From the NCBI GenBank assembly GCA_009841255.1, contig VXMD01000074.1, positions 1 to 64,000 on the forward strand: 64,000 nucleotides of DNA, written 5' to 3'. This DNA comes from Candidatus Poribacteria bacterium (GTDB taxonomy: Bacteria > Poribacteria > WGA-4E > WGA-3G). Shown piece after piece: positions 134 through 14,928 of the stretch (its first letter is position 1; each line of letters starts with the position of its first letter). The translations under genes and the position numbers were made by a program. The notes beneath the pieces are model-generated. The model was not told the origin of the DNA. It saw nothing but the letters and a program-made list of their open reading frames with translations, and searched no databases.

Positions 134-235
134 TTGAGCACACCCAAAAGCCCTAACAAGGATGATTTGGAAGATGCCGTGGGTAAGGCACTCCGGATAT
201 ATAGGAATTGCATGCGTCCTTTCGTGGAGGAATAA
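134..235 (+). pseudogene. Truncated HEPN/Swt1-type gene start (33 codons)
   Basis: This TTG-started reading frame is preceded by GGAGG (121-125) and closed by TAA directly before the ATG of the next gene. Its peptide begins L-S-T-P-K and continues with R-I-Y-R-N-C-M-R-P-F, which resembles the start of Swt1-type HEPN proteins. The DNA from about 92 to 150 is closely similar to the stretch just upstream of and into the 806-aa HEPN gene at 12508: the same TATGCT box, GTGGAGG ribosome site and TTGAGCAC start. Nothing after codon 33 resembles the longer paralogue. It is therefore most likely the remnant of a duplicated 5' end. It could still act as a short upstream cistron feeding ribosomes to the LRR gene. 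Confidence 0.6.
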
Positions 236-2098
236 ATGAAAAAACGGATAACACTTATTCTGATAATTTTACTCTCTCAAATTTTTGTTTCAGCACTCAC
301 TGCGGAAGATTGGATGCCTGATGAAACCCTCCGGCGCGTGATCTCTGAGACGTTAGGTGTTGACACGCTTACAATTGCAGACCTACAGAAACTTTACGAG
401 CTGATATTTGATGCCCGCGGTGTTAAAAGTCTCAAAGGCTTGGAACACGCTACAAATATTAAGACGTTACTGGTTGCGGATGAAGAGATTAGCGATCTAA
501 CACCACTTTCAGATCTTCGGAACCTAAGAGAACTAAAATTGTTTAGGAATCAGATTGTTGATATTTCACCGCTCTCAAATTTAATTCAATTAGAGGTGCT
601 TGAGTTACAGAACAATCAAATTGCCGATTTCACACCCTTATTGAACCTGACAAATCTGGGGTATCTTGATATTCGGAACAACCCAGATTCAGGTGTAGGT
701 CAGTTTGTATCCGCGCATCCAAGAGTAATAGAAGCATTACGACACTGGATGTGTGATTTTGGGTCGCCACTGTATGTGAAACCTGTAACGGAACGTCTTG
801 ATGCGCGTTCCTATCCTTCGATCGGCGGGTCGAACATGGTGAGAACAAAGTACGCAACAAGTTTAGAAGTTGTGGAGCCGTCTCGATCGGATTTCTTTGG
901 AGATACGTCTGTTTTTTATTCTGGGCTCTGGTTCGATAGGTCGCCTTTCGGCGGTGAGGTGCGTGCTGGTGAGGGGCCTTGGCATATTGAGAGGATAAAA
1001 CAAGATCATGCGAACCTTTTTCATGAGAACCCTAATGTACTGTTACTTGCTGAGATTCGCTACTATGATGGTTATCGCTTCGGGTTCACGGAAGATTCAC
1101 CTTATTGGTTGCGCAACCCTGATGGCACGATTGTAAGGGAGGAGTGGTTTGATGCTGAAGGCAATTTAGGTTATTTTAATGATATGGTTGATTTCACGAA
1201 CCCGGATGTCATTGAAATGATCGTCGCTCAAGCTGTTGCGGTTGCTAACTGCGGTCTCTATGATGGTATCATTCTCAATAATTGGAATGAGTCTGGAGAT
1301 CATCATGGGATTCCACAGGAGGAGGTCCTTCAGGCGCGGTTGCAAATTCTACAGAAGATTCGTGAGGCGGTGCCAGCAGACGATTTTCTGATAGCTGTAA
1401 ATTCAGTATGGCGCAAAATTCCACGCTCAGCTCCGTATATCAATGGGGCACTCATGGAAACTTGGGGGTCAGAGTGGCAAGGAACGGGGGAGGCTGCGTA
1501 TTATACCCGTCAAGACTATCTCAATTATGAGGAGGCACTTCTCTGGAACGAAGCGAACTATAGGGAACCGAACTTTACTTTTTTAGCTGCCAAACTTCCA
1601 ACTTATGCCGATCCACAATCACCTCACAATCTTCAAAACATGCGTGTGTTCACGACACTGAGTCTCACACATTCAGACGGCTACGTAAACGTACATCAGA
1701 GTCTATCGAGTAGTCTCTACTATAATTTCTGGGATGCCGACTTGGGTCGTCCGATCGGAAAGAAGGCAGAGACCTATGAGAATATCGAGGGCCTCTTTAT
1801 CCGGGAATATACCAATGGCTGGGCTGTCTATAATCGGAGCGGTAAGGAGCAAATTATCCGTTTGCCGGTAGAAACGACAGGTGTCAGCAATCAGCAATCA
1901 GCTAGCGTGCATGTGATTCCTGACCTCGATGGCGAAATGTATCTTAAATCACCCAGTGGAGACTTGAACGGTGACGGCGTTGTGAACGTTCTGGATTTAG
2001 TGATTGCCGCAAACGCTTTCGGGACAGCAGCACCTGACCTGAACGGTGACGGCGTTGTGAACGTTCTGGATCTCGTGCTTGTTGCGAATGAATTTTAG
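236..2098 (+). CDS. Secreted leucine-rich-repeat / putative glycosidase / dockerin protein
   Basis: This is a 620-aa exported protein. Residues 1-23 form a signal peptide with a basic start and a hydrophobic core ending near A-L-T-A. Residues about 55-150 hold four leucine-rich repeats of the internalin-like L-x-x-L-x-x-L type. Residues about 170-560 resemble a TIM-barrel putative glycoside hydrolase (GHL type), with segments such as D-F-T-N-P-D-V and Y-D-G-I-I-L-N-N-W. The last ~45 residues are two dockerin type I calcium loops (D-L-N-G-D-G-V-V-N-V-L-D-L). A good ribosome site (GGAGG at 226-230) supports the start. No cohesin is visible in the window, so the dockerin partner is unknown. The substrate cannot be named from sequence alone. 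Confidence 0.75.
   Translation: MKKRITLILIILLSQIFVSALTAEDWMPDETLRRVISETLGVDTLTIADLQKLYELIFDARGVKSLKGLEHATNIKTLLVADEEISDLTPLSDLRNLRELKLFRNQIVDISPLSNLIQLEVLELQNNQIADFTPLLNLTNLGYLDIRNNPDSGVGQFVSAHPRVIEALRHWMCDFGSPLYVKPVTERLDARSYPSIGGSNMVRTKYATSLEVVEPSRSDFFGDTSVFYSGLWFDRSPFGGEVRAGEGPWHIERIKQDHANLFHENPNVLLLAEIRYYDGYRFGFTEDSPYWLRNPDGTIVREEWFDAEGNLGYFNDMVDFTNPDVIEMIVAQAVAVANCGLYDGIILNNWNESGDHHGIPQEEVLQARLQILQKIREAVPADDFLIAVNSVWRKIPRSAPYINGALMETWGSEWQGTGEAAYYTRQDYLNYEEALLWNEANYREPNFTFLAAKLPTYADPQSPHNLQNMRVFTTLSLTHSDGYVNVHQSLSSSLYYNFWDADLGRPIGKKAETYENIEGLFIREYTNGWAVYNRSGKEQIIRLPVETTGVSNQQSASVHVIPDLDGEMYLKSPSGDLNGDGVVNVLDLVIAANAFGTAAPDLNGDGVVNVLDLVLVANEF
1965..2071 (+). repeat. Near-identical dockerin repeats (2 x 32 bp, period 75)
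   Basis: A 32-nt stretch at 1965-1996 recurs exactly at 2040-2071, 75 nt (25 codons) later. It encodes the N-G-D-G-V-V-N-V-L-D core of each dockerin half. Identity extending to synonymous positions points to recent duplication or gene conversion. Confidence 0.85.
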
Positions 2099-2300
2099 AG
2101 AGGGCAAACGAATGACATTCTTGAAACGGAAAAATAAGAAGCGTCGCGGATTAAGGCTTAGGTTGTCTAACGTGAGTTTGAAAAAAGTGAGTTGTTGGTC
2201 GGAAACCTATGTAAATCGTTGGTTTGCTGAAGTTCATCGAAGTTCAGAGAGGGTTTGTTCTCCGAGATAGGTCTGTGGATGCGGTTTCTGGAGAAAATAC

Positions 2301-2334
2301 CAGCAAAAACAACGCGCCCTTTATGAAGGGCGCG
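2301..2334 (-). terminator. Rho-independent terminator of the 51-aa peptide gene
   Basis: A perfect 9-bp inverted repeat, CGCGCCCTT (2313-2321) and AAGGGCGCG (2326-2334), has a 4-nt loop. Read on the minus strand it is followed by a T-rich tract (complement of 2301-2312). It lies 19 bp beyond the stop of the minus-strand peptide gene. The plus strand lacks a T tract after the stem, so the direction is clear. Confidence 0.85.
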
Positions 2335-2352
2335 CTCTTGGGCAAATCTTAC

Positions 2353-2508
2353 CTATTTGCCAGCAGGTTTTTTGGGGGGTGGGGAAGGTTGTGCCGGCCT
2401 ATTCCCAGCAGGTTTAGCTGGAGAAGAAGGAGACAGGGGTTTTCCTGGTGGTTTGCGAAGCGGTCTTCGAGGACCAGCAGCCTCATGAATGGGTTTTCTA
2501 TTTTTCAT
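2353..2508 (-). CDS. 51-aa proline/lysine-rich basic peptide, unknown function
   Basis: This short minus-strand gene encodes a peptide starting M-K-N-R-K-P-I-H and dominated by Pro, Lys, Arg and Ser, ending P-P-K-K-P-A-G-K. It has no predicted signal or membrane segment and is likely disordered. Three things support it as real: a strong GGAGGA ribosome site 9 nt before the ATG, a perfect terminator just downstream, and its position 57 bp after a membrane-protein gene on the same strand. An ATG 45 nt further upstream is in frame, but the ribosome site favours the start used here. I recognise no family. A small nucleic-acid-binding or assembly role is only a guess from composition. Confidence 0.55.
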   Translation of the reverse strand: MKNRKPIHEAAGPRRPLRKPPGKPLSPSSPAKPAGNRPAQPSPPPKKPAGK

Positions 2509-2565
2509 AACAATAGTTCCTCCAATGTTTATAGTCAGTAAAACGCACGGCACTGCTCATGCAGT

Positions 2566-3045
2566 TTATCCGCTTGCGTGGATGTTTTCTAAATTCAACC
2601 CAATGAATAGAGCCGTGCAAGAAACAGCAGCAATATAGGTAAAGACAGAAACATAACTCAGGATACGCGTTATCTGTGATGCCCGGGATATCTTTTCTCC
2701 GGCATTTTCGTCGCCCTCTAAATAGTACTTTTCATTGAACTCGCGTTGTTTGTTTAATGCGCGTTGACCGAAAAGGTATGATAACAGAGTGGAGGTAATC
2801 GCAAGGACAAACATCAGCCAAGAGCCATACAGACCCCATAGATGATCGGCTTTTGACAGTTCAACTACGTTTTTTATCAAAACCAATGATAGCCCTAAAC
2901 CTGCACTTGATAAAGAGAGAATTGCTTTGTCCAGATTTTCAACGTTTGACAGATCACGCTTAGAGAGATCTTCTTCCTCTTTAACGTATAACTCATAGAG
3001 TTTTTCTGAGTCATCATGTGAATTTTGGCGTTCTTCGTCCATCAT
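2566..3045 (-). CDS. Small three-helix membrane protein, unknown
   Basis: This 159-aa protein has a hydrophilic, acidic N-terminus (residues 1-40) and three hydrophobic segments: about 45-62 (S-A-G-L-G-L-S-L-V-L-I), 75-93 (W-L-M-F-V-L-A-I) and 130-150 (Y-V-S-V-F-T-Y-I-A-A). Between the second and third lies a polar, charged stretch. It starts M-M-D-E; either ATG fits the AGGGA ribosome site. It is the first gene of a minus-strand unit with the 51-aa peptide and has a good promoter upstream (3102-3131). I recognise no family. The layout of an acidic tail followed by three helices resembles small accessory membrane proteins found beside defence genes, but that is an impression only. Confidence 0.7.
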   Translation of the reverse strand: MMDEERQNSHDDSEKLYELYVKEEEDLSKRDLSNVENLDKAILSLSSAGLGLSLVLIKNVVELSKADHLWGLYGSWLMFVLAITSTLLSYLFGQRALNKQREFNEKYYLEGDENAGEKISRASQITRILSYVSVFTYIAAVSCTALFIGLNLENIHASG

Positions 3046-3101
3046 GTTCCCTGCCCGGAAGTTGGATTAAACAATATTATGACGTTCCTATGGATACTTT
3101 A

Positions 3102-3131
3102 AGTATATCATAATCCAAAACGCCCTGTCAA
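3102..3131 (-). promoter_or_regulatory. Sigma70-type promoter for the membrane-protein unit
   Basis: On the minus strand TTGACA (3131-3126) and TATACT (3107-3102) are separated by 18 nt. They lie about 57 nt upstream of the start at 3045. Both hexamers are close to consensus. Confidence 0.65.
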
Positions 3132-3308
3132 ATTCTTTATCTGTTAATTTGGAATTGGAGGCACCGTTTTTTATACACCTTTCGCCACGCTGGGCTAAAA
3201 CTGGCAATGCAAACAACGAGTGCGGTTTACAATCCGCGTTCATCCGTGTCATCCGCGATTCAGACAATTAACACATATCACCCCGCCGGGAAAATCACAG
3301 CCCTGTTT

Positions 3309-3373
3309 GTAGTAGTGCGATTCATCGCACGTTCTCATCCATTAGCGGACAATACACGGCGTGTACCTACTAC
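3309..3373. repeat. 65-bp palindrome-bounded intergenic element
   Basis: GTAGTAG (3309-3315) and CTACTAC (3367-3373) form terminal inverted repeats. An inner perfect stem, GTGCGA-ttca-TCGCAC, lies at 3315-3330. The element sits between the membrane-protein promoter and the end of the methyltransferase gene. The rest of 3132-3375 holds no gene I can support. Confidence 0.5.
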
Positions 3374-3375
3374 TT

Positions 3376-4599
3376 TTAATACCGCTGCTCTCCCAACTTA
3401 TGCACCAACATCACCTCATTCCCACGTGGGTCAATGACTTTGACAGCAACTTGTCCATGCTCACCGACGGGAAATGGAAGGGATTCTGTGCCGCTGAACT
3501 TCTCAAACTGTTCTTCGTCGATGACACCTTTGAGGGCGCGGGCGATTTTGTCCCACGCTTTTTTGTCGGGAAAGAAGGCTTGCGTGATGCAGAAGGTTCG
3601 ACCGTCGTAGTCGGAATCAACGAACCACGCCGCGACTTTGTCCGCGCCTGCGGAATTCACTGTGTTGTCTACAGGGTTGTAGACATCCACACCCTCCATC
3701 TTGACGATGTATTCCCCGTTATCTGTCTCTTGAATCTCTGTGCGTGGCATTCCGAACACCGTGAATAATTGTGTCGAAGGTGTTTCCTTGAGCAGCCCAC
3801 CCATTGCGACATCTGGGTTGATATGGGCGATATGGATACGAACCCTCGGATTCGGATCTTCTTGGATGATGGCTTGCGCGGCACCATCAAAACTGAAACC
3901 CGCAAAAACCAATTCATCGTAGCCACGACGGGACGCAATGCGGAGGCAATCCTCGACTTGCAGTGCCGTTACGGGCCCGTGTTGGGGACCGAATACGACT
4001 GCAACGAGGCGTTCCGTCTCGTCCCCTTCCCAACTCCCTTCGGCGTGGAGGACATCCCCCTCAAGTGGATCGAGCGTGGCAAATTTCAAGGTTCGGTTAT
4101 CGGGAAACTGCACACCGTCATTTCGGAGGAGTCGGATCATCTGGTCGAGATGTGCCTCGGCATTGACAGCGTTTTGTCCGTCTGTTTCGGCATCATAAGT
4201 GTCTAGCGGTGCATCGGGTTCGCCGCCGATAGGTGATTCGAGGTCAAGGGATTCTTCGGCGGGTTGCACTGCCTCTACGGTGAAGGGACCGCTCACCCGT
4301 ATCCGTTTTGTGTCAATGTTTGGCTGATCGACTAACTCTTCGCCTTCAGAAGATTTAGCGATACAGTCGTTCACTTCGTCCATCTTTGCGCGCCACGCCT
4401 TGCGGTAATCCATGAGAGCCTCTTGCAACGGTTGGGGCCAGTCGGGATCGGTATCAAATGGGACCTCCCACTCCTGCCAGCCTGTTTCTGGGAGTTGCCA
4501 GCGTCGCCGATCTGCCTCTGTGATAGATCTTTTTCCTTCCCGCCTCTCTTTTTCAGCAAGTTTAGAAAGCAATTTGGCGCGAATTTTGCGGGGGGGGGG
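3376..4599 (-). CDS. C-terminal part of adenine DNA methyltransferase, out of frame
   Basis: About 407 codons continue the methyltransferase gene in the next reading frame after a run of ten C on the coding strand. There is no start codon or ribosome site at the junction. The segment begins with a basic stretch (K-L-L-S-K-L-A-E-K-E-R-R-E-G) and ends with a compact domain whose visible segments include V-A-V-V-F-G-P-Q-H-G-P-V-T and R-R-G-Y-D-E-L-V-F-A-G-F. I do not know a precise name for this domain. In beta-class (type III Mod-like) enzymes such tails can contact partner subunits. With nine C instead of ten, the two parts would form one protein of about 990 residues. Treat it as one gene with 4562-6346, split by slippage, mutation or sequence error. 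Confidence 0.75.
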   Translation of the reverse strand, partial: PPPRKIRAKLLSKLAEKERREGKRSITEADRRRWQLPETGWQEWEVPFDTDPDWPQPLQEALMDYRKAWRAKMDEVNDCIAKSSEGEELVDQPNIDTKRIRVSGPFTVEAVQPAEESLDLESPIGGEPDAPLDTYDAETDGQNAVNAEAHLDQMIRLLRNDGVQFPDNRTLKFATLDPLEGDVLHAEGSWEGDETERLVAVVFGPQHGPVTALQVEDCLRIASRRGYDELVFAGFSFDGAAQAIIQEDPNPRVRIHIAHINPDVAMGGLLKETPSTQLFTVFGMPRTEIQETDNGEYIVKMEGVDVYNPVDNTVNSAGADKVAAWFVDSDYDGRTFCITQAFFPDKKAWDKIARALKGVIDEEQFEKFSGTESLPFPVGEHGQVAVKVIDPRGNEVMLVHKLGEQRY

Positions 4600-6346
4600 T
4601 AATTTGTGATAAGGTGTGATTGAGAGTTTCCAACCTCTCCTTGAGAATCGGTTCATGCTTTGCGAAAATAGGATCAAGCGCGGTGTTTTGGGCGATACTC
4701 CTAAGTGTAATATGTGGAACTGTTTTGTTGATGAAACTACCCGCGATACCCTTGGATTCGTCCTTGAGTTTGTAGTAGTCAAAATTCCCTGTTAAGAGAC
4801 GTTGGCGTGCTAAAGCGACCGCGACACGGCTCGTATCTATGGTTACCCATCGTCTGCCCCACTGCTCCGCAACATAAGCGGTTGTGCCACCCCCACAGGT
4901 GGGATCAAGAACAAGGTCGCCGGGCCTTGTTGTCATTAGAACACAACGCTCTATGACTTTATCTTGGGTTTGAACAACATAAAATCTCTCGTTTGCTTTA
5001 CCTGATGTATCAATCCAAGCATTCGTCAAACGTTTTACGGGAAAGTCTTGGTGATATTTTTTAAACCATGGTTTTTTCCCTCTGCTTTCCAATCTTCCAG
5101 CCGAATTAAGTCTTTGTAACCCTTCTATACTTGTTTTCCAATGGCTCTTTGAATCTGTAAGATGTGTATTTCCCTCAAAGCTAAAAGAAGGTCTATTAGA
5201 ACCGGCTCCAGCGGAAGTTAATCCCGAAAGTTGATATACTTTAGCTTCCGATGGTAGTAGATTTGTATTTGCTTTCTCTTCTGGAGTTAAAGGACGGTCC
5301 TTCATATCGATAGTAACGCCCCAAGAACCTCCCTTAGTTTCACGTGCCCATTCATCACAAGGCTTATCTATAAAAATCTGATGATATGCGAGGTTTTCTA
5401 TATTCCTCGCGTACCAGAGTAAATAAAACAAGTTGTTGTCTAATAACTTTCTTGGTGTTGTTGTCTTAAATACTGATATTTGAGAAACGAAGTTATTCGG
5501 TCTAAACACCTCGTCCATTAAATTGCGTGCAAGATGAACATTTTCATCACCAATCTGCACAAAGATGCTCCCACTATCTGTCAACAACTCTTTGGCAACA
5601 ATCAGGCGTTCACGCAAATAGGCAAGATAAGAGTGGATCCCGAGCGTCCACGTATCGCGGTAGGCTTTAATCTGTTCACGTTCGCGGGTTAAATCTTGAT
5701 CTCTGTCCTTTACATCGCGCTGAAAGACGGTGGGTTGGAAGTTGGAGGCGAACTTGATGCCGTAAGGCGGATCGATATAGATCATCTGCACCTTACCGGC
5801 GAGGTCTTCTCGGTGCGCAAGCGAACTCATCACGGTGAGGCTGTCACCCAAAATGAGGCGGTTCGCCCAATCCACATCGTGTTGGTAAAAATCGACTGCT
5901 TTGCTATAATCCTGCTGCGGATCGGCGAAGAGTTCACGCTGGACGTTCTGGCGTTCTGCGACTTTCAAGATGGCTTTGGCACTCACACGCTCGTGGATAT
6001 GCAGTGCGACGGGATCCACAGTGAAAGATTTCGTTTCTTGTTTGCCTGCCCATTCCAGCCATGGACTGTGGTGCTGGAGGGCATCGGCGAGGGTTTTCGC
6101 TTCTTCGGTGCTGAGGGGTCGCTGTTGTGCTGTTTGTAGAAGTTCGGGGAGCTTGTCTGCGTCTCCGTTTGGGTCGGATCGGAGGTTGGGCGGTAGATGC
6201 GGATTGTAGGTGTATTCCTGTTTTGGGGTTTCTTGGATTCTGCCTTGTGCGGCGATACCTGCAGGTGGGTTGTTTTTTCGGGTAGCAGTGTCGTGTCGAT
6301 AGTCTTGGACATCTTTTCGTTGGGTGGTGCGTTTTCTCCTCGCCAT
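4562..6346 (-). CDS. Beta-class N6-adenine DNA methyltransferase (N-terminal part)
   Basis: The frame is 594 aa, of which about 583 precede the frameshift. It transfers methyl from S-adenosylmethionine to adenine in DNA. Motif IV is D-P-P-Y-G at residues 192-196, and motif I is L-D-P-T-C-G-G-G near residue 480. The order IV then I is that of beta-class enzymes, which include type III Mod subunits. The ~240 residues between them would carry target recognition. The start has an ideal AAGGAGG site 7 nt upstream. No Res-type helicase-nuclease gene adjoins it, so it is orphan or works with the divergent operon at 6543. The frame runs into a C10 tract and stops about ten codons later, losing the C-terminal ~400 residues. 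Confidence 0.85.
   Translation of the reverse strand: MARRKRTTQRKDVQDYRHDTATRKNNPPAGIAAQGRIQETPKQEYTYNPHLPPNLRSDPNGDADKLPELLQTAQQRPLSTEEAKTLADALQHHSPWLEWAGKQETKSFTVDPVALHIHERVSAKAILKVAERQNVQRELFADPQQDYSKAVDFYQHDVDWANRLILGDSLTVMSSLAHREDLAGKVQMIYIDPPYGIKFASNFQPTVFQRDVKDRDQDLTREREQIKAYRDTWTLGIHSYLAYLRERLIVAKELLTDSGSIFVQIGDENVHLARNLMDEVFRPNNFVSQISVFKTTTPRKLLDNNLFYLLWYARNIENLAYHQIFIDKPCDEWARETKGGSWGVTIDMKDRPLTPEEKANTNLLPSEAKVYQLSGLTSAGAGSNRPSFSFEGNTHLTDSKSHWKTSIEGLQRLNSAGRLESRGKKPWFKKYHQDFPVKRLTNAWIDTSGKANERFYVVQTQDKVIERCVLMTTRPGDLVLDPTCGGGTTAYVAEQWGRRWVTIDTSRVAVALARQRLLTGNFDYYKLKDESKGIAGSFINKTVPHITLRSIAQNTALDPIFAKHEPILKERLETLNHTLSQITPPPQNSRQIAF
4590..4599. repeat. Ten-base G/C homopolymer inside the methyltransferase gene
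   Basis: Ten consecutive G on the plus strand (C on the coding strand) sit exactly at the boundary between the two methyltransferase reading frames. Nine C would join them. Such tracts are known slip sites in phase-variable methyltransferase genes and are also frequent sites of sequencing error. Confidence 0.9.
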
Positions 6347-6426
6347 TCTGTATCCTCCTTGTTTATTATCAGCGATAATACCTTAAATTTATGGTTGGTG
6401 TCAAGTTCTTTTTGTAAAAATATTAC

Positions 6427-6458
6427 TTGACCTCTCGAGAAAGTTTATGGTAAACTTT
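6427..6458 (+). promoter_or_regulatory. Promoter with embedded operator-like palindrome
   Basis: TTGACC (6427-6432) and TAAACT (6451-6456) are spaced by 18 nt. A perfect inverted repeat, AAAGTTTA-tgg-TAAACTTT (6440-6458), covers the spacer and the -10 box. It lies about 85 nt before the first ORF of the plus-strand operon and about 80 nt upstream of the divergent methyltransferase start. A dimeric repressor bound here would block transcription. No regulator gene is recognisable in the operon. Confidence 0.5.
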
Positions 6459-6542
6459 AAGATAATCCCTTGGGAAGAACAGGTTCGACTCAAAATCGGA
6501 CGTTACGGAAACACACAGGCAAATTGACTGAAAGAGATCTTC

Positions 6543-6967
6543 ATGAAATTGGAAGTCATTAAAAACTGCACAACAGAAAAAATAATTAAGGTTACTCCGT
6601 ACCAGATTTAGCCATGCGTGATTTTCAGGAATGGCATGGAAAGAATGAAGATGTAATCAAGTTGAATCACCTATCATATACTATTGCAAATCTGAACTCA
6701 ACGGACTCGGAGATTAACGAGCCTATATCAAATCTATGGGAAGTTGACTTCTATCTACCCAATCCGATAAAAAATCGAGCACTTTCTCAATTCACGAAAT
6801 CACAAACAATTACACAAGAGTTATCAGATCAGATTCCTGATGAAGTCACCGATGAAGCCTCCATGGCGGTTTTGAAATCAAACATTGTGTTATCTGCTGT
6901 CGGAACGGAAATTTTACAGAATCATCATCCGCATTCTGACTACAAAGTGAGAATTTCCGATGGATAG
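6543..6967 (+). pseudogene. First ORF of the defence-like operon, probably frameshifted
   Basis: An ATG at 6543 opens a 22-codon frame (M-K-L-E-V-I-K-N...P-Y-Q-I) that stops at TAG 6609-6611. A second frame opens at ATG 6614 and gives 117 aa (M-R-D-F-Q-E-W-H-G...V-R-I-S-D-G), overlapping the next ORF by 8 bp. Adding one base near 6609 would fuse the two into a protein of about 140 residues. I infer one gene with a single-base lesion, though the 117-aa frame alone may be translated. No family is recognised; the product is soluble and rich in Asn, Ser and acidic residues. It is the first gene after the palindrome promoter, so an adaptor or regulator for the downstream genes is possible. Confidence 0.45.
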
Positions 6968-8117
6968 ACAATCAGTTACACTGTCAGTTACACTGGATGA
7001 GTTTATTGCTTCATACTCATTCTGGGGTGAATGGGAGGTTTCCTATACAGACGGGACTCATCTGCCTAAAGATGAATATGTGAAACTTGGTGCCATCACA
7101 ATTGACGGATCCGAGGAGATAGCACAACACTATCCAATTCTGCCTTTTACTTTTCAGTTCGCGACAGATCGAGAGTTTGAAGAACGCTTTTCTGAGTTAT
7201 TTTGCCGTTTTCCTGAATTACTGCAGACCAAGAAACAAAATGACAAAATAGAAAAGCAACAAAACAGCTCAGAAGACCAAAAGGCACAAGTAAATCGAAC
7301 GAAAAAAATCATACGTAACGAACTTGCAGACAGTATAGTCAGAACGGGGTTGTTGCGTCCAGAGTTTTGCTTAATGAAAGAACAAACTGTTGAAATGAGG
7401 TTCCTTGATGTGATGGAACAACTTTCAAAATCAAAAGATGGTTACCTAATCTTTGTTACTGATACGAGTGCGCTGCGTCGAGGAGCCATTTCTTTTTTGC
7501 ACAAAACTCTATCTAAGGTGCTAATTTGGACAATTGTTCCTGTTTTTGTGATGACTGAAGTCCAACGACAGATAAATGAATTGAACAAAATCTGGACCCA
7601 AAGTGATAAACCGCACCTCGGTAGGTGCAGTGTCCTGAGACAGCGACCACAGGTTTCGTGTATTAGCTGAGAGTTGAACTACATTCGCCAATGGAGACCG
7701 CTAGAAATACTAACAACGCTCTCTGAGCATTTAGGTTAGTCGAACGGTACCTCAAAAGTTGACCGACTTATTATTGAATGTGTTAAAAATCTTAAGCGGG
7801 ATCGTGGGCTTCACCGAGGGGTTTACCTTATCACTGGAGACAAAGATATGGCTTCGCTTGCGGCTTTAGAGAATCAAGGAAGTCTCTATATTGGTGCACC
7901 TCCTTTACCATCAAAGATCAACTCTGTTCAATACAACTCTCATAATCGAAGGTTGGTACTAACGCCTATTCACTATCTACTATGGGATTTAGCACAGGTT
8001 TTTAGTACGATTCGCGTTGAGAACAAAGAACATTCATGCAAATATGACCTTGTTTATTACTCACAAGCGCGTGGAGGCTTCTTTGCTAACGACGTAATGG
8101 AAATTCGGGAGGTGTGA
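6960..8117 (+). pseudogene. PIN-like nuclease gene interrupted by two in-frame stops
   Basis: One frame spans 385 codons but carries TGA at 7668-7670 and TAG at 7737-7739. Open parts are 6960-7667 and 7740-8117. The first ~150 residues match nothing I know. The later part looks PIN-like: V-T-D-T-S-A-L-R-R-G gives the first acidic residue at a strand end, followed by V-D-R-L-I-I-E-C and L-I-T-G-D-K-D-M-A. These are typical places for PIN acidic residues in metal-dependent RNases. CGA to TGA and CAG to TAG are single transitions that would explain both stops. The upstream ORF overlaps by 8 bp and the next gene starts 3 bp after the end. An ATG at 7848 could restart only the last 89 codons, without the first PIN acid. 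Confidence 0.6.
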
Positions 8118-8120
8118 CAG

Positions 8121-9038
8121 TTGGACCCGATTACCATAAGCAAATTACTTTCCGTTGCGGATGCCCTTGAGATACATCGTGCTGCAGGTGAACTTTCAAT
8201 GGATGCCTTTTATGAAATTGTTGAGAGTCAAGGAAAGATAAAAAATCTTGCCCGAAGATCAGGTGATATCTTGAGAGTTTTTGAAGCATCTCACTGGATT
8301 GTCCGGAGTGCTCAAGATCGGAATATCTTGTGTCTAACCAAAAATTACAATAGGCTTATTCATGCTTGGAACTCTGGAGACTGCTTGTTGCCGATGAGTC
8401 AAGGACTGATAAATTATCCACCTTACTCGGATTTCCTTGAATGCCTGAAACAGGAACAGGAGATTAAGATTCCGCAACGTCAAGATAAGGAATCTCGCAG
8501 GGATTTAGGGCGTAAATTAAAGCCTAAATACGGTATTACCTTCGTTGCTTTTGATATATTTCAAACATGGGCAGTATCCTTAGGGCATGCCTACCGTTCT
8601 CCCTTTAAAGCCATTCTTTATTGGGGTGGAGAGTGGGATGCCCAGCGACCTTCATTAGAACACTTTAAAACGGTCTGCCAAGCACATTATAACTGGGCGG
8701 AAAAAACGTCCGGTTACGCGAACCTTGGGCGTTTGGCACATCAGGTTTGCCGAGAATTACGCATCTCCTTTCAAGCTTTTGAAATGAAAATGCAGCAATT
8801 TATAGAAAGGTTCCCCGGCGAAATTACACTCGCTCCAGCAACAATCCGCCGAGAAATTTCTGGCCATCTCCAGATCACTTCAATACGATCGAGAAAGGAG
8901 ATTCGCAGGGAAAAACTTTCGGCAAAATTGCTGCCAGGCAGTAAGAGATCTCCTATACAGTGGATAGAACGTCGGTATCTGGAGGATGGAGTGCACATCA
9001 ATGGCAAATTGGTTAAACTAATTCGGTGGGAGGATTAA
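8121..9038 (+). CDS. Unknown 305-aa operon protein
   Basis: The gene starts at TTG with a GGGAGG site at 8107-8112, 8 nt upstream, and ends one base before the next gene. The product is soluble. The N-terminal ~60 residues (L-L-S-V-A-D-A-L-E-I-H-R-A-A-G) look helical and could be a winged-helix-like module (A-F-Y-E-I-V-E-S-Q-G). A basic region follows (R-Q-D-K-E-S-R-R-D-L-G-R-K-L). A further module holds Y-G-I-T-F-V-A-F-D-I-F-Q-T-W-A and the C-terminus is strongly basic (I-R-S-R-K-E-I-R-R-E-K-L). These traits suit a DNA- or RNA-binding subunit. I recognise no family and cannot assign a catalytic role. Tight packing with the ATPase and TGT-fold genes says they act together. Confidence 0.8.
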   Translation: MDPITISKLLSVADALEIHRAAGELSMDAFYEIVESQGKIKNLARRSGDILRVFEASHWIVRSAQDRNILCLTKNYNRLIHAWNSGDCLLPMSQGLINYPPYSDFLECLKQEQEIKIPQRQDKESRRDLGRKLKPKYGITFVAFDIFQTWAVSLGHAYRSPFKAILYWGGEWDAQRPSLEHFKTVCQAHYNWAEKTSGYANLGRLAHQVCRELRISFQAFEMKMQQFIERFPGEITLAPATIRREISGHLQITSIRSRKEIRREKLSAKLLPGSKRSPIQWIERRYLEDGVHINGKLVKLIRWED

Positions 9039-9039
9039 A

Positions 9040-10194
9040 TTGGCATTGGAAAAAGATCTTTCTCTATTTGAAGCAAGATCTGAAGAACTCAACCCTTATG
9101 AGGAAGTATTTCTTCTTGAAAACCCCTTCCCAGAGAGGGGTGAACCTAAGTCAGATGTCTGCACTGACCAGGACGCTATAAAGAAGAAGTTTGTCTACAC
9201 CCTACAGAATTTTTCCTCAACTTCAAAACGGTTACGTATTAACGGAAGAACCGGGGCAGGAAAGACAAACATCTTGCAGTACTTTGAGCGGTTGACTAAT
9301 GAGGCGAGGCGGAGTAAACTTATCAAAAACCTTCATCCGATCTATGTCTCGGCACCTGGCGAGAGTTATTTCAACGTTCACGGACAAATTGTTGATAAAC
9401 TTACTGGATCCTTCTTGACCGATTTAGTCAGTAAACTACAAGTGAACAAGAATTTAATTAGCGAACTTTTACAAACAGTTAAAACAGCAAGCGAATTTTT
9501 GAAAGTCATTAAAGCTATTGCCCAACCTACCCAAACCTCACTTGCGGGTTGGGAAGAACGCCAGAAAGATGCCTTCGTTCGGTGGCTAAAAGGGCAAAAA
9601 CTCACAGCAGCAGACAAAAAACTCTTAACTGACGATGGCGTGTCCCCTGTTGACATCACGAATTCTTCACTCGCTATGCGGTTTCTGTATGGATTTCTTG
9701 AGATCTTAAAGGAACTTAATATGTGCAACGGTATTGTCTTGTTATTCGACGAATTCGAGGAGATCTTTGAAAAGTTAACCCGATCGCACCAAGCCCGATA
9801 CGCCCAAGACTTGCGGCATCTTTTTGATATATTAAACGAGTCTGTTTTCTTTGTAATTGCAACCACACCAGAACCAGGAGACCTTGAACAGTATCCCGCA
9901 ATTGACCGCCGCTTAGGCGAACCAGTGGAGCTCCAACCCATAGACAGTCTTGAACTCGCTACTGGCTACGTGACTGACTACCTCAATAGTGGTCGTGACA
10001 AGTTTGAGGCAGATAAAAAACGTCCTGAGTCTAACCGACCCAGCGGGTTGGAACCTCTAACACGAGAGATTGTTGAGGAAGAGTACCTTTCGTTAAAACA
10101 ACAAGTTGAAGCCACTGGAGAGAATGTTTTACCAGGGTATTTTTTACCAAAAATACGCGAACGGATGAGACAGATTGTGGAAAACGGTGATTGA
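9040..10194 (+). CDS. P-loop ATPase of the TGT-fold operon
   Basis: This 384-aa protein has a Walker A motif G-R-T-G-A-G-K-T at residues 69-76 and a Walker B motif L-L-F-D-E-F-E-E with D237-E238. Sensor-like I-A-T-T-P-E-P and R-R-L-G-E-P-V-E-L follow. This is an AAA/STAND-like core of the type found in ATPases of BREX and other defence systems, but I cannot place it in a named family. The TTG start has GGGAGG at 9028-9033, 6 nt upstream. The stop overlaps the next start by one base (TGATG), so translation is coupled to the TGT-fold protein. Dpd DNA-modification systems include ATPase partners, which fits the context. Its role is inferred to be energy coupling or DNA remodelling. Confidence 0.8.
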   Translation: MALEKDLSLFEARSEELNPYEEVFLLENPFPERGEPKSDVCTDQDAIKKKFVYTLQNFSSTSKRLRINGRTGAGKTNILQYFERLTNEARRSKLIKNLHPIYVSAPGESYFNVHGQIVDKLTGSFLTDLVSKLQVNKNLISELLQTVKTASEFLKVIKAIAQPTQTSLAGWEERQKDAFVRWLKGQKLTAADKKLLTDDGVSPVDITNSSLAMRFLYGFLEILKELNMCNGIVLLFDEFEEIFEKLTRSHQARYAQDLRHLFDILNESVFFVIATTPEPGDLEQYPAIDRRLGEPVELQPIDSLELATGYVTDYLNSGRDKFEADKKRPESNRPSGLEPLTREIVEEEYLSLKQQVEATGENVLPGYFLPKIRERMRQIVENGD

Positions 10195-11384
10195 TGGATC
10201 AAGATGCAACATGCGCCTCTGTTTTCTCAAGGGTTCATTTGGACACCCCCAATCTTTTCGCCAGTTATCGCATAGGTGATTGTCCGCATGCGGGACTTCT
10301 TCGTCCCCCTTGGAAAATGACTGGCACTCAGGCGGTTCTGGTTAATGCCTTTGATCTGTTAGGGAATTACCGAACGCGAAGATTTACTTCAGAGATCAGA
10401 GAAGCGGAAAACACACTTCGCGAGTATATCCACTTTGACGGTCCCTTGATGCTCGATTCCGGTGGTTTTAACTTCCAAAAACAGGATGAAATCAGTATTG
10501 CCTCGCTTGATGTTCTCGAAATCGGGATTGAGTTCGCCGTGGATGTTTCTGTTGTACTTGATCATCCCTTCCTACCTACCTCCACACCTGAAGAAAGGGA
10601 AACTCGTTGGGAAAACACCGTAACAAACACCGAGGAAATGTTTGAAAAACTAAAAGATAGGGACTTACCAGATTACTTCCAGTTGATGCCGGTGCTGCAT
10701 GGACATGATCCAGAGACCCTCAAGCAATCTCTTGCTCGTATTGTCGAGATTTGGGGAGAGAATCCTCCAATAGTTGGGATAGGGAGTTTAGCACCATTGG
10801 CACTCAATGGAAATAAGCGCACAGCGATTGACATTATCTGCACAGTCAGACGGCTTCTGCCAAATGCTCACATCCACTGCTTTTCATTGGGATCCGCGTT
10901 GCTAATGCTATTCGCTTTTTATTGTGGTGCTGACACAGTTGATTCACAAAGTTGGATGATTAGTGCAGCATTCAAAAATGTGCAATTGCCTGGCTTTCCT
11001 TGGACACGATTTTCTTCTCGTGAGAGAGATAAAGATTCTGATAAATATGAAGAGAAGCGTAATGCCTTTGCCGATCGTTTATTGGAATTAATAGAACAAG
11101 AGGGATTTGCTGTCAAAGACTGGGATGAAGAAAAAGATTGGAAAATTGAAAATAAAAGTGACGCACTTTTTTACTTAGACTACCTTGAGCATAAAGATGG
11201 CGAGCAACATATTCATCGCCGTGCTTGTCATAATCTATACGCTTTCAACTTTGAGGCGAAGCGAGTCCGTGAAGAAAAGGAAAAAGGGGTAAGAGCCCTC
11301 GAAACTTTCATTGAGGGACGAATGAAAAGTCCTGTCTATCGGAAAACTTTTGAGTACGCTATCCAGAAGATTAGTTCCAAGTAG
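10194..11384 (+). CDS. TGT-fold (DpdA-like) base-exchange enzyme
   Basis: This 396-aa protein resembles tRNA-guanine transglycosylases and DpdA, the paralogue that swaps guanine for preQ0 in DNA. L-D-S-G-G-F lies at residues 87-92 with D88 matching the general acid/base Asp. Q-L-M-P-V-L-H-G and V-G-I-G-S-L-A-P-L match the base pocket. G-A-D-T-V-D-S-Q-S-W places D247 and D250 at the nucleophile Asp region. C-H-N-L-Y-A-F near the C-terminus recalls the TGT tail motif. The zinc motif C-x-C-x-x-C of tRNA enzymes is absent, which favours a DpdA-like role. The ATG at 10194 overlaps the ATPase stop; a TTG one codon upstream is possible. No preQ0 genes (folE, queD, queE, queC) are in the window, so precursor would come from elsewhere. 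Confidence 0.7.
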   Translation: MDQDATCASVFSRVHLDTPNLFASYRIGDCPHAGLLRPPWKMTGTQAVLVNAFDLLGNYRTRRFTSEIREAENTLREYIHFDGPLMLDSGGFNFQKQDEISIASLDVLEIGIEFAVDVSVVLDHPFLPTSTPEERETRWENTVTNTEEMFEKLKDRDLPDYFQLMPVLHGHDPETLKQSLARIVEIWGENPPIVGIGSLAPLALNGNKRTAIDIICTVRRLLPNAHIHCFSLGSALLMLFAFYCGADTVDSQSWMISAAFKNVQLPGFPWTRFSSRERDKDSDKYEEKRNAFADRLLELIEQEGFAVKDWDEEKDWKIENKSDALFYLDYLEHKDGEQHIHRRACHNLYAFNFEAKRVREEKEKGVRALETFIEGRMKSPVYRKTFEYAIQKISSK

Positions 11385-11440
11385 TAAAAAACGTGCATAC
11401 AACACAAACGTGTAGCGACAGAAGCCATTAGTTGCCTCAA

Positions 11441-11899
11441 TCAGTTAACGAAGGTTTCCCACAACCATTTCTTCAGTTGAGCCTGTTTTTTTCCTATCGG
11501 ACCGTAAGCGACGATTGATTCTGTAAGTGCAGGGACCAACTGTCGCAAATCCTTAAATGCCTTGAGATAAGTCTTTCCAAGTACAAAACAAATTGAGGTG
11601 TATTTGTTTTGTAGAATATTTGAAAACTCAGTATTAACTTGGGGCTGCAACTCTACAACCCGTGATGTGTTCATCTTTCGATCGTACAATGGAGTAGGAA
11701 AATCCCACGGAATAAGCCCATAGGCGGCGGACAAGATATACACATCTAAGTGCTTGGTTTGACGCGGACATTCACGAATAAAACGACGTAAGACAAAGAA
11801 TAATGGACCGTTGTATCTCTCAATTGCAGGTAAAGGCTCTGGAGAAGTGGATTTGCGTTGTGAACATGATAGAATAAGTAACCGTTTTTTGCAGTTCAT
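11441..11899 (-). CDS. DUF6884 / archaeosine-synthase-like small protein
   Basis: This 152-aa protein runs convergently, ending 57 bp from the TGT-fold gene. The N-terminus L-L-I-L-S-C-S-Q-R-K-S, then Y-N-G-P-L-F-F and V-Y-I-L-S-A-A-Y-G-L-I-P-W, match the pattern of DUF6884-type proteins. Those resemble the C-S-x-x-K core domain of archaeosine synthase, which acts on preQ0-modified nucleotides. In Dpd systems a separate protein, DpdC, converts inserted preQ0 to the amide form; whether this gene is its equivalent is inference. An alternative is the YaaA-like or nucleoside-hydrolase-like branch of the same broad group. Its neighbour being a TGT-fold enzyme strengthens the 7-deazaguanine interpretation. 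Confidence 0.6.
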   Translation of the reverse strand: MNCKKRLLILSCSQRKSTSPEPLPAIERYNGPLFFVLRRFIRECPRQTKHLDVYILSAAYGLIPWDFPTPLYDRKMNTSRVVELQPQVNTEFSNILQNKYTSICFVLGKTYLKAFKDLRQLVPALTESIVAYGPIGKKQAQLKKWLWETFVN

Positions 11900-12448
11900 A
11901 GTATGGCTGCCTAAAAGTAAAGGGCTGAATTAGCAGCATCTATTCGGGGACTCCATTGGTGGCATTGCGTCCATCCGCATTGACGCACGGGCTGTTCAAA
12001 TGCTCTAAATTGCAACCTATTTGGATTTCACCGTGCTTTGATAAACAAAGTGTATCTTCGCTCACGCTATAATGCTAACCGTTTACGTAACAAAAATCAA
12101 CCAAATTATCCATTAGAGATGTGTAAAGTTTTTGTTATTCTCCGTAGTGGATTTCATGAGTGTATGGATAATTGTAGGCTTTACGCGCAACCGTCGTGAA
12201 ATTTTCATAGCAACTTTCATAGTGACTCCTAATGCCATCTTCTAAAACCCAATATCCATCAGCGTTTATCACCTCTCACGACACCTATTGATTTTTCGGT
12301 TTGCTATGAAAACTATGAAAATATCTTCAAATTTGCGAAACCTGTTAACGTGTGCCGTATCCTTCCGAAATCCTAAAAATCCTATCTCTGACAACCTACT
12401 GTCAAAATATTTACAGACCCCTTTGCCTCTTGCCTCTTTGCCTTCTGA
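11900..12448. other. Long intergenic region with inverted CTATGAAA pairs
   Basis: No gene could be supported here. The only clear structure is the paired CTATGAAA motifs at 12202-12320. Just before the promoter at 12449 is a short pyrimidine-rich tract of repeated TTGCCTCTTGCC type. Confidence 0.5.
12202..12320. repeat. Two inverted pairs of CTATGAAA
   Basis: TTTCATAG occurs twice at 12203-12222 and its reverse complement CTATGAAA twice at 12304-12320. The two tandem pairs face each other about 80 bp apart, some 130-250 bp upstream of the HEPN gene promoter. This could be a cooperative protein-binding site or the ends of a small lost element. Confidence 0.45.
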
Positions 12449-12477
12449 TTGACAAACAATTCTCAAAATGGTATGCT
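12449..12477 (+). promoter_or_regulatory. Sigma70 promoter of the HEPN gene
   Basis: TTGACA (12449-12454) and TATGCT (12472-12477) are spaced by exactly 17 nt. GGAGG (12495-12499) then lies 8 nt before the TTG start at 12508. The related copy at 66-103 keeps both boxes, but with a 26-nt spacer. Confidence 0.75.
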
Positions 12478-12507
12478 AAAGGAAATATTTACGTGGAGGT
12501 TTTAGAC

Positions 12508-14928
12508 TTGAGCACGCCGAAATACCCCAACCGAGATGCACTCCGTGAAGCAAACGATATATACTTGGATGTCATGTACCAATTTGTTAGCAAATGTTTA
12601 GATAAAGTTCAAGGTACAACAGCGGGGAAATTAATTAGAGATGCCTTAAGGTGGTCGTCCCACGATGCCATTGAAGAAAAGATAGAAATTAGTGACATTG
12701 CCCATCTTGTTAGAACATACTGGTACGATTCATTTGAGGAACAATTTGAAGTTATTGATCGCTATTACGAAGCTCGGAGTGTGGTAGGTCTGATAGTGGA
12801 GGGACGAAATCGAGCCTCACATCGACCATGGGATTTGGACCCCGAGTTCACCCGGACACAGTTATTTCTCATTGCCGAATTACTCGGTAAAATTAATAAA
12901 CCGAACGAACAGCGTCAAGTTGAAGCTATCCGAGACAAACTCTTTTCTGATGACGCGAAGGAACGTCTCGCGGAAACAAAAGAACGCTTAAAGGAGATGG
13001 AAACAGAAAATGCTAAATATAAACAATCTCTCTTGGAAACAAAGGAACGCTTGACAGACGCGGAGTCAAAGAATAGCAAATACGAAAAAGACACCGCAGA
13101 ACTCTCAAAACAGGTCGATGAGAAAGAAAATCGCATCAAAAAATTACTAAAGCAGCAGAAGGAGGCAAAAGCACAAAATGAGAAATCTAAAAAGGACTTG
13201 GCACGCACAAAGCGAGGTTTAGAAAAATCCGAAGAGGCACAAACGGACTATAAGCAACGTCTCGAAACTATATCAAAGGAACTGAAAGCGACAGAAAAGG
13301 AAGCGCGCACAGCTGAGGAAAATCTTAAGACGACCTCTAATCAATTAGAGGAGGCAGTGGATGAGTGGGGCACATCTGTAGAACGCCTCATGGCTACGCG
13401 AAAACTATTTACGACAGCGACGATCGGCAGCCAAGAAATTCAAAAGATATTCCCTTCCTTTGAAACTGATTCTGCTGTCCGAATACTTGACCGGCGAGGC
13501 ACAGACAAACGCAACTATCTTGTAAAGCTCATGGAGCAAAAACAGTCTACTCTCATCTACGTCCAAAGTGAAGAGAAAATTAATGAGTTGTTGACCCATG
13601 TCGTGCCGGAGAAAGCAGAGGTTATTGGAAGGCATAATGAGCGAACGTCTAAGGCTGAGGAAACGGAAATTTTGGAAAAACTTGAGAATCGCGAATTAAT
13701 TGCTGTTGTTTCCAATACTACGTTTTCTACATTGGCATCGTCGCACTGCGTTGAGCATTTTGTTTTCTGCCACCTTACCCCAGGTTTAGATGAATTTTTC
13801 AAACGATGTGAACCAGTTTTTGCATCAGCGAAAAGTGCTTATCTGCATCTCATATACAATGACGAACAAGATGCTAAAAACTTGAATGAGTGGTTAACTC
13901 AAAAATATCCAGATAGGAAAACGTTGAATAGCCTCTATAGAGCATTAAGGGAGTGTGTCGGAATAAATGGAGATTTTATCAACACTCAAAAAGTCTATAA
14001 CGGATTGGATATAGCGGGACTGGGGATAACGGAACTGGGGATTGAAACGGGTCTTGCTATCTTTGAGGAAGTAGGGGCACTTGAACGAAGTAAGGATAGC
14101 ATAAAACTCTTACCTTTCTCCGGAAGGAAATCGAAGATTCATCATAGAGGTGAAGAACTGAAAGGCGAAATAGAGGAAATTCGATCATTTCAACTTAAAC
14201 AACCAATTGAAAAAATTTGGGAAGAAATATTGGGAGCACTGGATATAGATTTGGAGAGATATCTCTTGAAATCCAATGTAGCATCTGGTGAAGCAGAAGT
14301 GGATGCCGAAACCGTGTTGGAAGAAGAGGAGACCAGTTCTTATGACGCTAGTTCAATAGATTCAGAAGTGAACAATCCTAATGATATAGATGATAAGCAA
14401 TCGGTAACAAAACAACCTGTGACTCCTTCCAAATTTAGTGGGAAATGGACAATGGAGGAAGTTAGAAATTCATTATCTGAGGAAATTAGAGATTATCATC
14501 GAAAGAATTATCCTGAGGAAAGATGCAATATATTTTACAGAAGAGTTGTAGAGATACAGAATTTGATTGAGGCAGAAGGCTGGAGGTTAAAACCGCCAAA
14601 ACTCAATAAAGAGAGTTGCAGTTTTCAGTTAATGGATAAGGGAATTACAAGGGTTAGAATAGTATTTGGTGTACTTCTTGACACTTTCCTACCGCATGCC
14701 AATCTGGTAGATCGAAACGGCGAGAAAATTCCAGATCTTTCTATAAAGTCTAATCCGCCTCGGATCTTTGCACCCATAACGGAAGAAGAAGCAAAGCAAT
14801 TGGAGCGTCAGCATGGATGTGAATTTTGGGGAATTACAGAAAGGAAGATCTACTACAATATCCCTGATGATATTACAGAACTTAGACCTGTTCTTGAATT
14901 TGCCTATAACAAACATCGCGGGCAGTAA
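12508..14928 (+). CDS. HEPN (Swt1-type) / coiled-coil / helicase-like protein
   Basis: This 806-aa protein starts at TTG, chosen for the GGAGG site and promoter; a GTG 52 codons upstream precedes the promoter and is unlikely. Residues 1-130 look like a Swt1-type HEPN domain with R100-N-R-A-S-H105, matching the HEPN RNase motif R-x4-H. Residues 132-294 are a long charged coiled coil. Residues about 298-535 recall the second helicase lobe plus a winged helix of RecQ-like proteins (S-T-L-I-Y-V-Q-S-E, then V-F-C-H-L-T-P-G-L-D), but no Walker A is present. An acidic linker (588-644) leads to a ~160-residue C-terminal domain of unknown type. A HEPN toxin tied to a DNA- or RNA-sensing scaffold is the likely reading. 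It is monocistronic and convergent with the efflux gene, 11 bp apart. Confidence 0.65.
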   Translation: MSTPKYPNRDALREANDIYLDVMYQFVSKCLDKVQGTTAGKLIRDALRWSSHDAIEEKIEISDIAHLVRTYWYDSFEEQFEVIDRYYEARSVVGLIVEGRNRASHRPWDLDPEFTRTQLFLIAELLGKINKPNEQRQVEAIRDKLFSDDAKERLAETKERLKEMETENAKYKQSLLETKERLTDAESKNSKYEKDTAELSKQVDEKENRIKKLLKQQKEAKAQNEKSKKDLARTKRGLEKSEEAQTDYKQRLETISKELKATEKEARTAEENLKTTSNQLEEAVDEWGTSVERLMATRKLFTTATIGSQEIQKIFPSFETDSAVRILDRRGTDKRNYLVKLMEQKQSTLIYVQSEEKINELLTHVVPEKAEVIGRHNERTSKAEETEILEKLENRELIAVVSNTTFSTLASSHCVEHFVFCHLTPGLDEFFKRCEPVFASAKSAYLHLIYNDEQDAKNLNEWLTQKYPDRKTLNSLYRALRECVGINGDFINTQKVYNGLDIAGLGITELGIETGLAIFEEVGALERSKDSIKLLPFSGRKSKIHHRGEELKGEIEEIRSFQLKQPIEKIWEEILGALDIDLERYLLKSNVASGEAEVDAETVLEEEETSSYDASSIDSEVNNPNDIDDKQSVTKQPVTPSKFSGKWTMEEVRNSLSEEIRDYHRKNYPEERCNIFYRRVVEIQNLIEAEGWRLKPPKLNKESCSFQLMDKGITRVRIVFGVLLDTFLPHANLVDRNGEKIPDLSIKSNPPRIFAPITEEEAKQLERQHGCEFWGITERKIYYNIPDDITELRPVLEFAYNKHRGQ

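Follow-up and report, generated by a model that had tools for sequence, protein, structure and literature searches.

The locus at 6543-11899 of the window (the window being the whole 64,000-nucleotide stretch analysed, positions 1 to 64,000 of contig VXMD01000074.1, from a 5.7 Mb Candidatus Poribacteria metagenome-assembled genome) raises the question of whether an enzyme with the tRNA-guanine transglycosylase (TGT) fold, encoded in a closely packed group of genes, stands at the centre of a DNA-modification or defence system, and whether that system is one of those already described. A first-pass annotation made from the letters alone had proposed a tight plus-strand unit with spacing of 1 to 3 bp or overlaps, beginning with two damaged open reading frames (ORFs), the second PIN-like. 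This description was borne out: the gaps are 3, 1 and -4 bp, the TGT ORF starting at 10191 with a 4 bp overlap with the ATPase stop, and a 56 bp convergent gap then leads to a DUF6884 gene. The genes of the locus are as follows.

6543-6967, plus strand: o117, a small acidic cassette protein, frameshifted near its start here; the remainder is 6614-6967.
6960-8117, plus strand: PIN-domain nuclease (PIN_4 type), a single frame with two in-frame stops here.
8121-9038, plus strand: B305, 305 amino acids (aa), basic, a predicted winged-helix-containing DNA-binding protein; intact.
9040-10194, plus strand: AAA+ ATPase of the BrxC/BrxD/TniB/Orc type; Walker A and B intact.
10191-11384, plus strand: TGT-fold base-exchange enzyme; intact, catalytic Asp kept, zinc cysteines lost.
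11441-11899, minus strand: DUF6884 protein (YaaA/DpdC-like) with CSQRK and LSAAYG motifs; intact.

The window locus represents a conserved cassette of six genes in a partly decayed state. Four of the six genes are intact, with ratios of nonsynonymous to synonymous substitution (dN/dS) of approximately 0.1-0.46, and the two damaged genes, o117 and PIN, are both whole in relatives. Within a survey set of 85 Poribacteria genomes (cassette genomes and loci carry G and L numbers below), TGT homologues were found in seven genomes besides that of the window, the copy in G040 being a remnant without the catalytic core, and homologues were also found in two Anaerolineae. The cassette genes are kept together in all nine, with overlaps or short gaps where measured. 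Intact copies occur in three of the other Poribacteria and one of the Anaerolineae, and a divergent type in two more Poribacteria. All six genes are present in G003, where DUF6884 is convergent as in the window; in G045, G042, G016 and the Anaerolineae locus L044 all six lie on one strand, ordered DUF6884-o117-PIN-B305-ATPase-TGT, again with overlaps or short gaps. Since the same genes recur jointly in other genomes at approximately 27-93% protein identity, the sequence comparison indicates that their grouping is not due to chance.

Co-conservation of the ATPase and B305 genes with the TGT gene had been set beforehand as the test of the proposal, and it was observed. An ATPase profile matched exactly the eight TGT-carrying genomes among the 85 Poribacteria and none elsewhere; a B305 profile matched seven of the eight and none elsewhere, the contig of the eighth ending inside the ATPase gene. 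Full-length relatives of this TGT were found neither on their own nor in tRNA-related surroundings. DUF6884 is distributed more broadly (26 of the 85 genomes), often adjoining other TGT genes. When B305 was searched for in 396 genomes from the class to which the Anaerolineae host belongs, only the known host matched, so by this measure the cassette is rare in that class. Viral contigs yielded no relatives of the cassette queries, which argues for a cellular system rather than a phage anti-restriction gene set. Searches of a viral structure library and viral contigs gave no relatives of the TGT, B305, the PIN nuclease or two haloarchaeal homologues described below (B and ATPase), and tblastn found neither B305 in phage records nor the ATPase in plasmid records.

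The cassette is a real, conserved and rare TGT-based system, and the features that define the known Dpd (DpdA-DpdK) and BREX-related capture (BRC) systems place it outside both, as detailed below. On balance we think it probable that it is a TGT-centred DNA-modification and restriction (defence) system that marks DNA with a 7-deazaguanine, Dpd-like but not Dpd. The observations behind this reading are operon conservation, co-occurrence, family assignments, homology to a haloarchaeal gene triple and modular exchange; from them we infer a DNA substrate, the base made, the target of the PIN nuclease, the division of labour and the role in defence.

The central enzyme matches the TGT family (PF01702, E = 6e-16), with both catalytic Asp regions and no zinc motif, as the first-pass annotation had it. 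The catalytic Asp pair of the superfamily (the DSGxF and xD(S/C) motifs on the TGT barrel) is present as D89 and D251, which are invariant in nine cassette TGTs, as is D124. The C.C..C zinc motif (CxCxxC...H site) is absent from all nine, with the histidine of the HN motif kept, whereas zinc cysteines are present in DpdA, haloarchaeal, archaeosine-type and canonical TGTs. Loss of this site does not exclude the TGT fold, because BRC-like loci also have zinc-less TGTs. The earlier label of a DpdA-like enzyme holds for the fold but not for the lineage. In our tree the cassette TGTs group together with support, apart from canonical Tgt and from the DpdA clade (support 100/100), and they loosely join BRC GNAT-TGT proteins (84/68) and a TGT from G083; the deep nodes are weak and long branches meet, so that this last grouping is tentative.

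One link to 7-deazaguanine chemistry is the DUF6884 gene, which had been correctly placed convergently at the end of the unit. Its product matches PF21818 (E = 1.5e-9) and contains both CxxxK and LSAxxG, the two motifs named by Pfam for the family (PMC11701544). DUF6884 is given as the Pfam domain of DpdC (PMC11888242), and a DpdC-type DUF6884, a feature of Dpd, is present in the cassette. DpdC models match the cassette protein weakly, and the domain that genuine DpdA carries as a fusion in the NurA-HerA-DpdA operons of Poribacteria is its homologue. The gene is the first of the operon in most relatives and convergent in the window, G003 and G012. QueC is encoded by all cassette-bearing Poribacteria.

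The remaining two intact proteins, described at first as a P-loop ATPase and a basic protein of no known family, retained those descriptions. The ATPase matches BrxC_BrxD (PF10923, E = 5e-10), with TniB and AAA_16 matches too, and its Walker motifs read GRTGAGKT (A) and LLFDEFE (B). B305 (isoelectric point 9.5) gave no significant match in Pfam, NCBIfam or PADLOC. Its AlphaFold model (pLDDT 83) has FokI as best PDB match (E = 0.018, TM 0.33) and matches many winged-helix domains at probability >0.9 with low coverage, and B305 is likely a winged-helix DNA binder. A sequence search of solved structures with B305, the ATPase and DUF6884 returned nothing significant.

On plasmids of Haloferax, Halorientalis, Haloarcula and other haloarchaea, homologues of the TGT, B305 and the ATPase form a unit of three genes, annotated only as TGT, hypothetical protein and BREX ATP-binding protein. 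Eight plasmids carry the TGT (344 aa) and the B protein (approximately 300 aa); where an ATPase is annotated (seven records, the Natronococcus record listing none), the genes overlap by a few bases. Comparison of cassette and haloarchaeal profiles with hhalign gave probabilities of 98.5 for the TGT (E = 3e-15), 98.8 for the ATPase (E = 1e-16) and 90 for B305 (E = 1.6e-6), and mismatched negative controls stayed below 0.4. On these profile alignments the three-gene core is homologous in the two settings. In the plasmid collection searched, the B protein was confined to those eight plasmids. The haloarchaeal unit differs from the cassette in that its TGT keeps the zinc cysteines, its gene order is TGT-B-ATPase and it has neither PIN nor o117. 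It adjoins DpdA/DpdC, with a DpdA match on all eight plasmids, and usually has preQ0 or transport genes nearby: within the stretches viewed, six of the eight plasmids carry que genes (queC, folE, queE and queD in Halorientalis and Salinigranum, queE and queD in Haloarcula, queD in Haloferax) or a queuosine-precursor transporter (Natronococcus and Natronorubrum). The co-occurrence data and these homologues beside DpdA/DpdC support the original interpretation of a system reduced or distinct relative to Dpd.

The damaged PIN gene and its partner would represent the restriction half. The stops in the window lie at about 7668 and 7737, and the frame aligns end to end with intact PIN_4-type proteins of 358-388 aa in relatives, those of L029 and L034 matching PF13638 above the cut-off. 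The conserved acidic quartet of the PIN fold is present in the intact relatives, in which D169, E201, D270, D296 and D298 (L029 numbering) are invariant. Because the read-through window frame still has a dN/dS of 0.16 against the intact G003 copy, its inactivation looks recent. The o117 remainder at 6614-6967 aligns to a protein of 137-145 aa that is whole in relatives of the main type; its model is a predicted alpha/beta fold that gave no match in a structure search, and it possibly regulates the PIN nuclease or acts together with it. Three cassettes (window, G012 and L045) keep the TGT but have a broken PIN gene or none at all, as expected if the effector is dispensable. Since both PIN and o117 are broken in the window, at most the modification half could work in that genome.

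The genes also appear to have moved as blocks. Between G016/G040 and the other Poribacteria, the TGT and DUF6884 share approximately 60-74% identity, compared with 23-38% for o117, PIN, B305 and the ATPase. The Anaerolineae PIN, B305 and ATPase are 47-63% identical to the main Poribacteria type and closer to those of the window than are those of G016, though G016 belongs to the window's genus. Between the window and G012, synonymous divergence (dS) is 0.12-0.13 in B305 and the ATPase and 0.56 in the TGT. From these identity and dS figures we infer that the o117-PIN-B305-ATPase block has been exchanged separately from the chemistry genes, TGT and DUF6884.

Under the proposed mechanism, the AAA+ ATPase and B305 would recognise DNA and serve to load or activate the TGT, which would swap guanine for a 7-deazaguanine, most likely preQ0, via the usual Asp nucleophile. 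DUF6884 would finish the base in the manner of DpdC (nitrile to amide), and the PIN nuclease, probably controlled by o117, would act as effector against unmarked nucleic acid. In some lineages NurA-HerA or a RecQ-like helicase would add DNA processing. A broader proposal, which we hold at slightly less than an even chance, is that of a distinct class of immunity by TGT-based modification of nucleic acid, common to Archaea and Bacteria, with a core of TGT, winged-helix protein and BrxD-like AAA+ ATPase. Here the ATPase/B305 pair would place a zinc-less TGT on DNA, where it would write 7-deazaguanine marks, PIN or NurA-HerA would enforce them, and the writing and enforcing blocks would be exchanged like restriction specificity modules. 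In the literature searched, TGT chemistry on DNA is described only for Dpd islands, phage and archaeal-virus DpdA and predicted BRC systems. The cassette and its haloarchaeal core show that in two domains of life TGT enzymes have been recruited with a different ATPase and a likely DNA-binding partner, on the haloarchaeal side on plasmids often carrying preQ0 genes. This opens a direct way to test for new 7-deazaguanine marks in DNA and to ask how a TGT is brought to act on double-stranded DNA, and the co-exchange of the PIN-B305-ATPase block would be a natural dissection of targeting and chemistry.

Several observations weigh against a DNA-marking defence system. In G040 (L035, 5955-10332) the PIN, B305 and ATPase are whole and the TGT is cut to 127 aa without a catalytic core, which would be lethal under a simple protect-or-cut scheme; the PIN nuclease would therefore have to be inactive, triggered or TGT-dependent. 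Both Anaerolineae hosts show weak QueC matches and none that is clear, so preQ0 would be salvaged there or another base used. DpdA accompanies the haloarchaeal triple and is missing from the cassette locus, for which reason the triple's TGT may be an accessory on those plasmids. The structural models provide no confident fold for B305 and none for o117. Finally, PIN domains are mostly RNases, as are most PIN_4/VapC-like proteins, and the TGT is ancestrally a tRNA enzyme. This background favours the main rival, in which the TGT modifies tRNA or another RNA, the PIN RNase cuts unmodified RNA in a toxin-antitoxin or abortive-infection scheme, and the ATPase and B305 are invasion sensors. The best sequence scores of the window TGT are indeed to the archaeosine tRNA enzyme (TIGR00432, E = 4e-19; PDB 1iq8, E = 1e-10). 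We nevertheless consider an RNA-directed system unlikely: the ATPase belongs with the DNA-type BREX/TniB/Orc proteins, B305 is a basic protein matching winged-helix domains, DUF6884 is equated with DpdC and fused to DpdA in Poribacteria, the haloarchaeal triples adjoin DpdA/DpdC, and NurA-HerA follows the TGT in Anaerolineae. Least likely of all, and hardly credible, is a housekeeping tRNA-modification paralogue beside unrelated genes; the window genome does encode two further TGT genes, one of them canonical Tgt, but against it speak the strict co-conservation of several genes, their tight overlaps, the setting in defence islands and a patchy distribution (8 of 85 Poribacteria).

Membership in a known system was judged improbable for Dpd and very improbable for BRC. 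The cassette shares with Dpd the TGT paralogue with a DUF6884/DpdC-type protein, ATPases, a likely modification/restriction division and a C-terminal HRRA.HN motif that resembles NRRRGFHN of DpdA, and in G071 a DpdF-like RecQ helicase directly follows the TGT. The statement that no helicase is present thus stands for the window cassette and not for G071 or for the Anaerolineae relatives with NurA-HerA. However, the window TGT scores 25.5 bits against the DpdA equivalog NF041059 (cut-off 200), lies outside the DpdA clade and lacks the zinc cysteines found in every DpdA examined. DpdB (NF041060, a DGQHR/ParB-like ATPase) had no match in nine of ten cassette genomes, including that of the window, and a single sub-threshold match on another contig in G003. 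DpdB, DpdD-K and BRC components are absent from the window locus, and the cassette gave no DpdD, E, G, I, J or K matches. A BrxD-like ATPase and B305 take the place of DpdB/DpdG/DpdH, and the PIN effector that of DpdK/DpdJ/DpdE. Identification of B305 as DpdG was not supported by profile comparison (probability 0.1, and 0.3-0.4 for haloarchaeal B, with shallow profiles of 1-2 sequences), as was that of the ATPase as DpdH, the match to one DpdH being weak (probability 26, shallow profile) and that of the haloarchaeal ATPase to a two-row DpdH profile covering the P-loop only (probability 21). The cassette probably works like Dpd, though it is not Dpd. BRC, in which a GNAT-TGT is joined to PglZ, DUF6079, DUF4007 and HerA, likewise couples a TGT to BREX-type ATPase machinery (PMC12839542). 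The GNAT-TGTs of BRC-like loci, also zinc-less, are among the nearest relatives in the tree, the cassette ATPase is BrxC/D-like, and HerA follows the TGT in two Anaerolineae. Against this, BRC has no DpdC-like gene (PMC12839542) and the cassette has DUF6884, PIN, B305 and o117. PglZ, DUF6079, DUF4007 and HerA gave no Pfam or PADLOC match in the cassette genes or adjacent ORFs scanned, except for the BrxC-like SspC of an Ssp system that adjoins the cassette in G016 and the HerA of the two Anaerolineae; GNAT was matched by no cassette gene, and HerA, which is universal in BRC, is missing from the cassettes of Poribacteria. The BrxC/PglZ pair of BREX was not found either, the BrxC/D-like ATPase domain occurring without a PglZ match.

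The surroundings of the cassette vary between genomes, and the presence of defence genes among the neighbours counts in favour of a defence role. SspBCD or SspD-type genes with HNH genes are neighbours in G016, G042 and G045, and a type IIG restriction-modification enzyme in G040. The helicase of G071 overlaps the TGT gene. In Anaerolineae, the cassette at L044 (6480-12005) is followed in one run, across very short gaps, by genes for NurA, HerA, a DarG-like macro protein and DarT, and L045 also has HerA after the TGT. Beside the window locus lies the following gene.

3376-6346, minus strand: divergent type III DNA methyltransferase, frameshift-split into 4562-6346 and 3376-4782.

This methyltransferase is an optional neighbour, since only G003 and G012 have an intact version (983-1001 aa) next to the cassette. 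Neither there nor in the window was a restriction subunit seen adjoining it. At 12352-14928 the window encodes a coiled-coil protein of 858 aa that gives a weak helicase C-terminal match and was not found beside other cassettes.

Poribacteria contain other TGT systems, namely NurA-HerA-DUF6884::DpdA, DUF6884-NurA-HerA-TGT and BRC-like GNAT-TGT loci. The NurA-HerA-TGT operons (L066-L070 and L113-L117) share a TGT with DUF6884 with the cassette, and NurA-HerA with its Anaerolineae relatives, but lack B305, the ATPase and PIN; they encode either a genuine DpdA, in most cases fused to DUF6884, or another TGT of approximately 350 aa. The former arrangement, at L066-L070 (G060, G027, G012, G031 and G009), where no DpdB was seen, is apparently undescribed. 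The latter, at L113-L117 (G011, G065, G068, G046 and G038), in which NurA, HerA and in most cases DUF6884 accompany the TGT, looks like one more system based on a TGT. At L036 (G083, 235-8565) a distant relative of the cassette TGT has genes for DUF6884, an N6/N4 methyltransferase and a DEAD helicase of 1356 aa nearby. On cyanobacterial Dpd plasmids (L109, 6159-7082; L100, 8794-9741), a second small zinc-less TGT is encoded between two DEAD/DEAH helicases.

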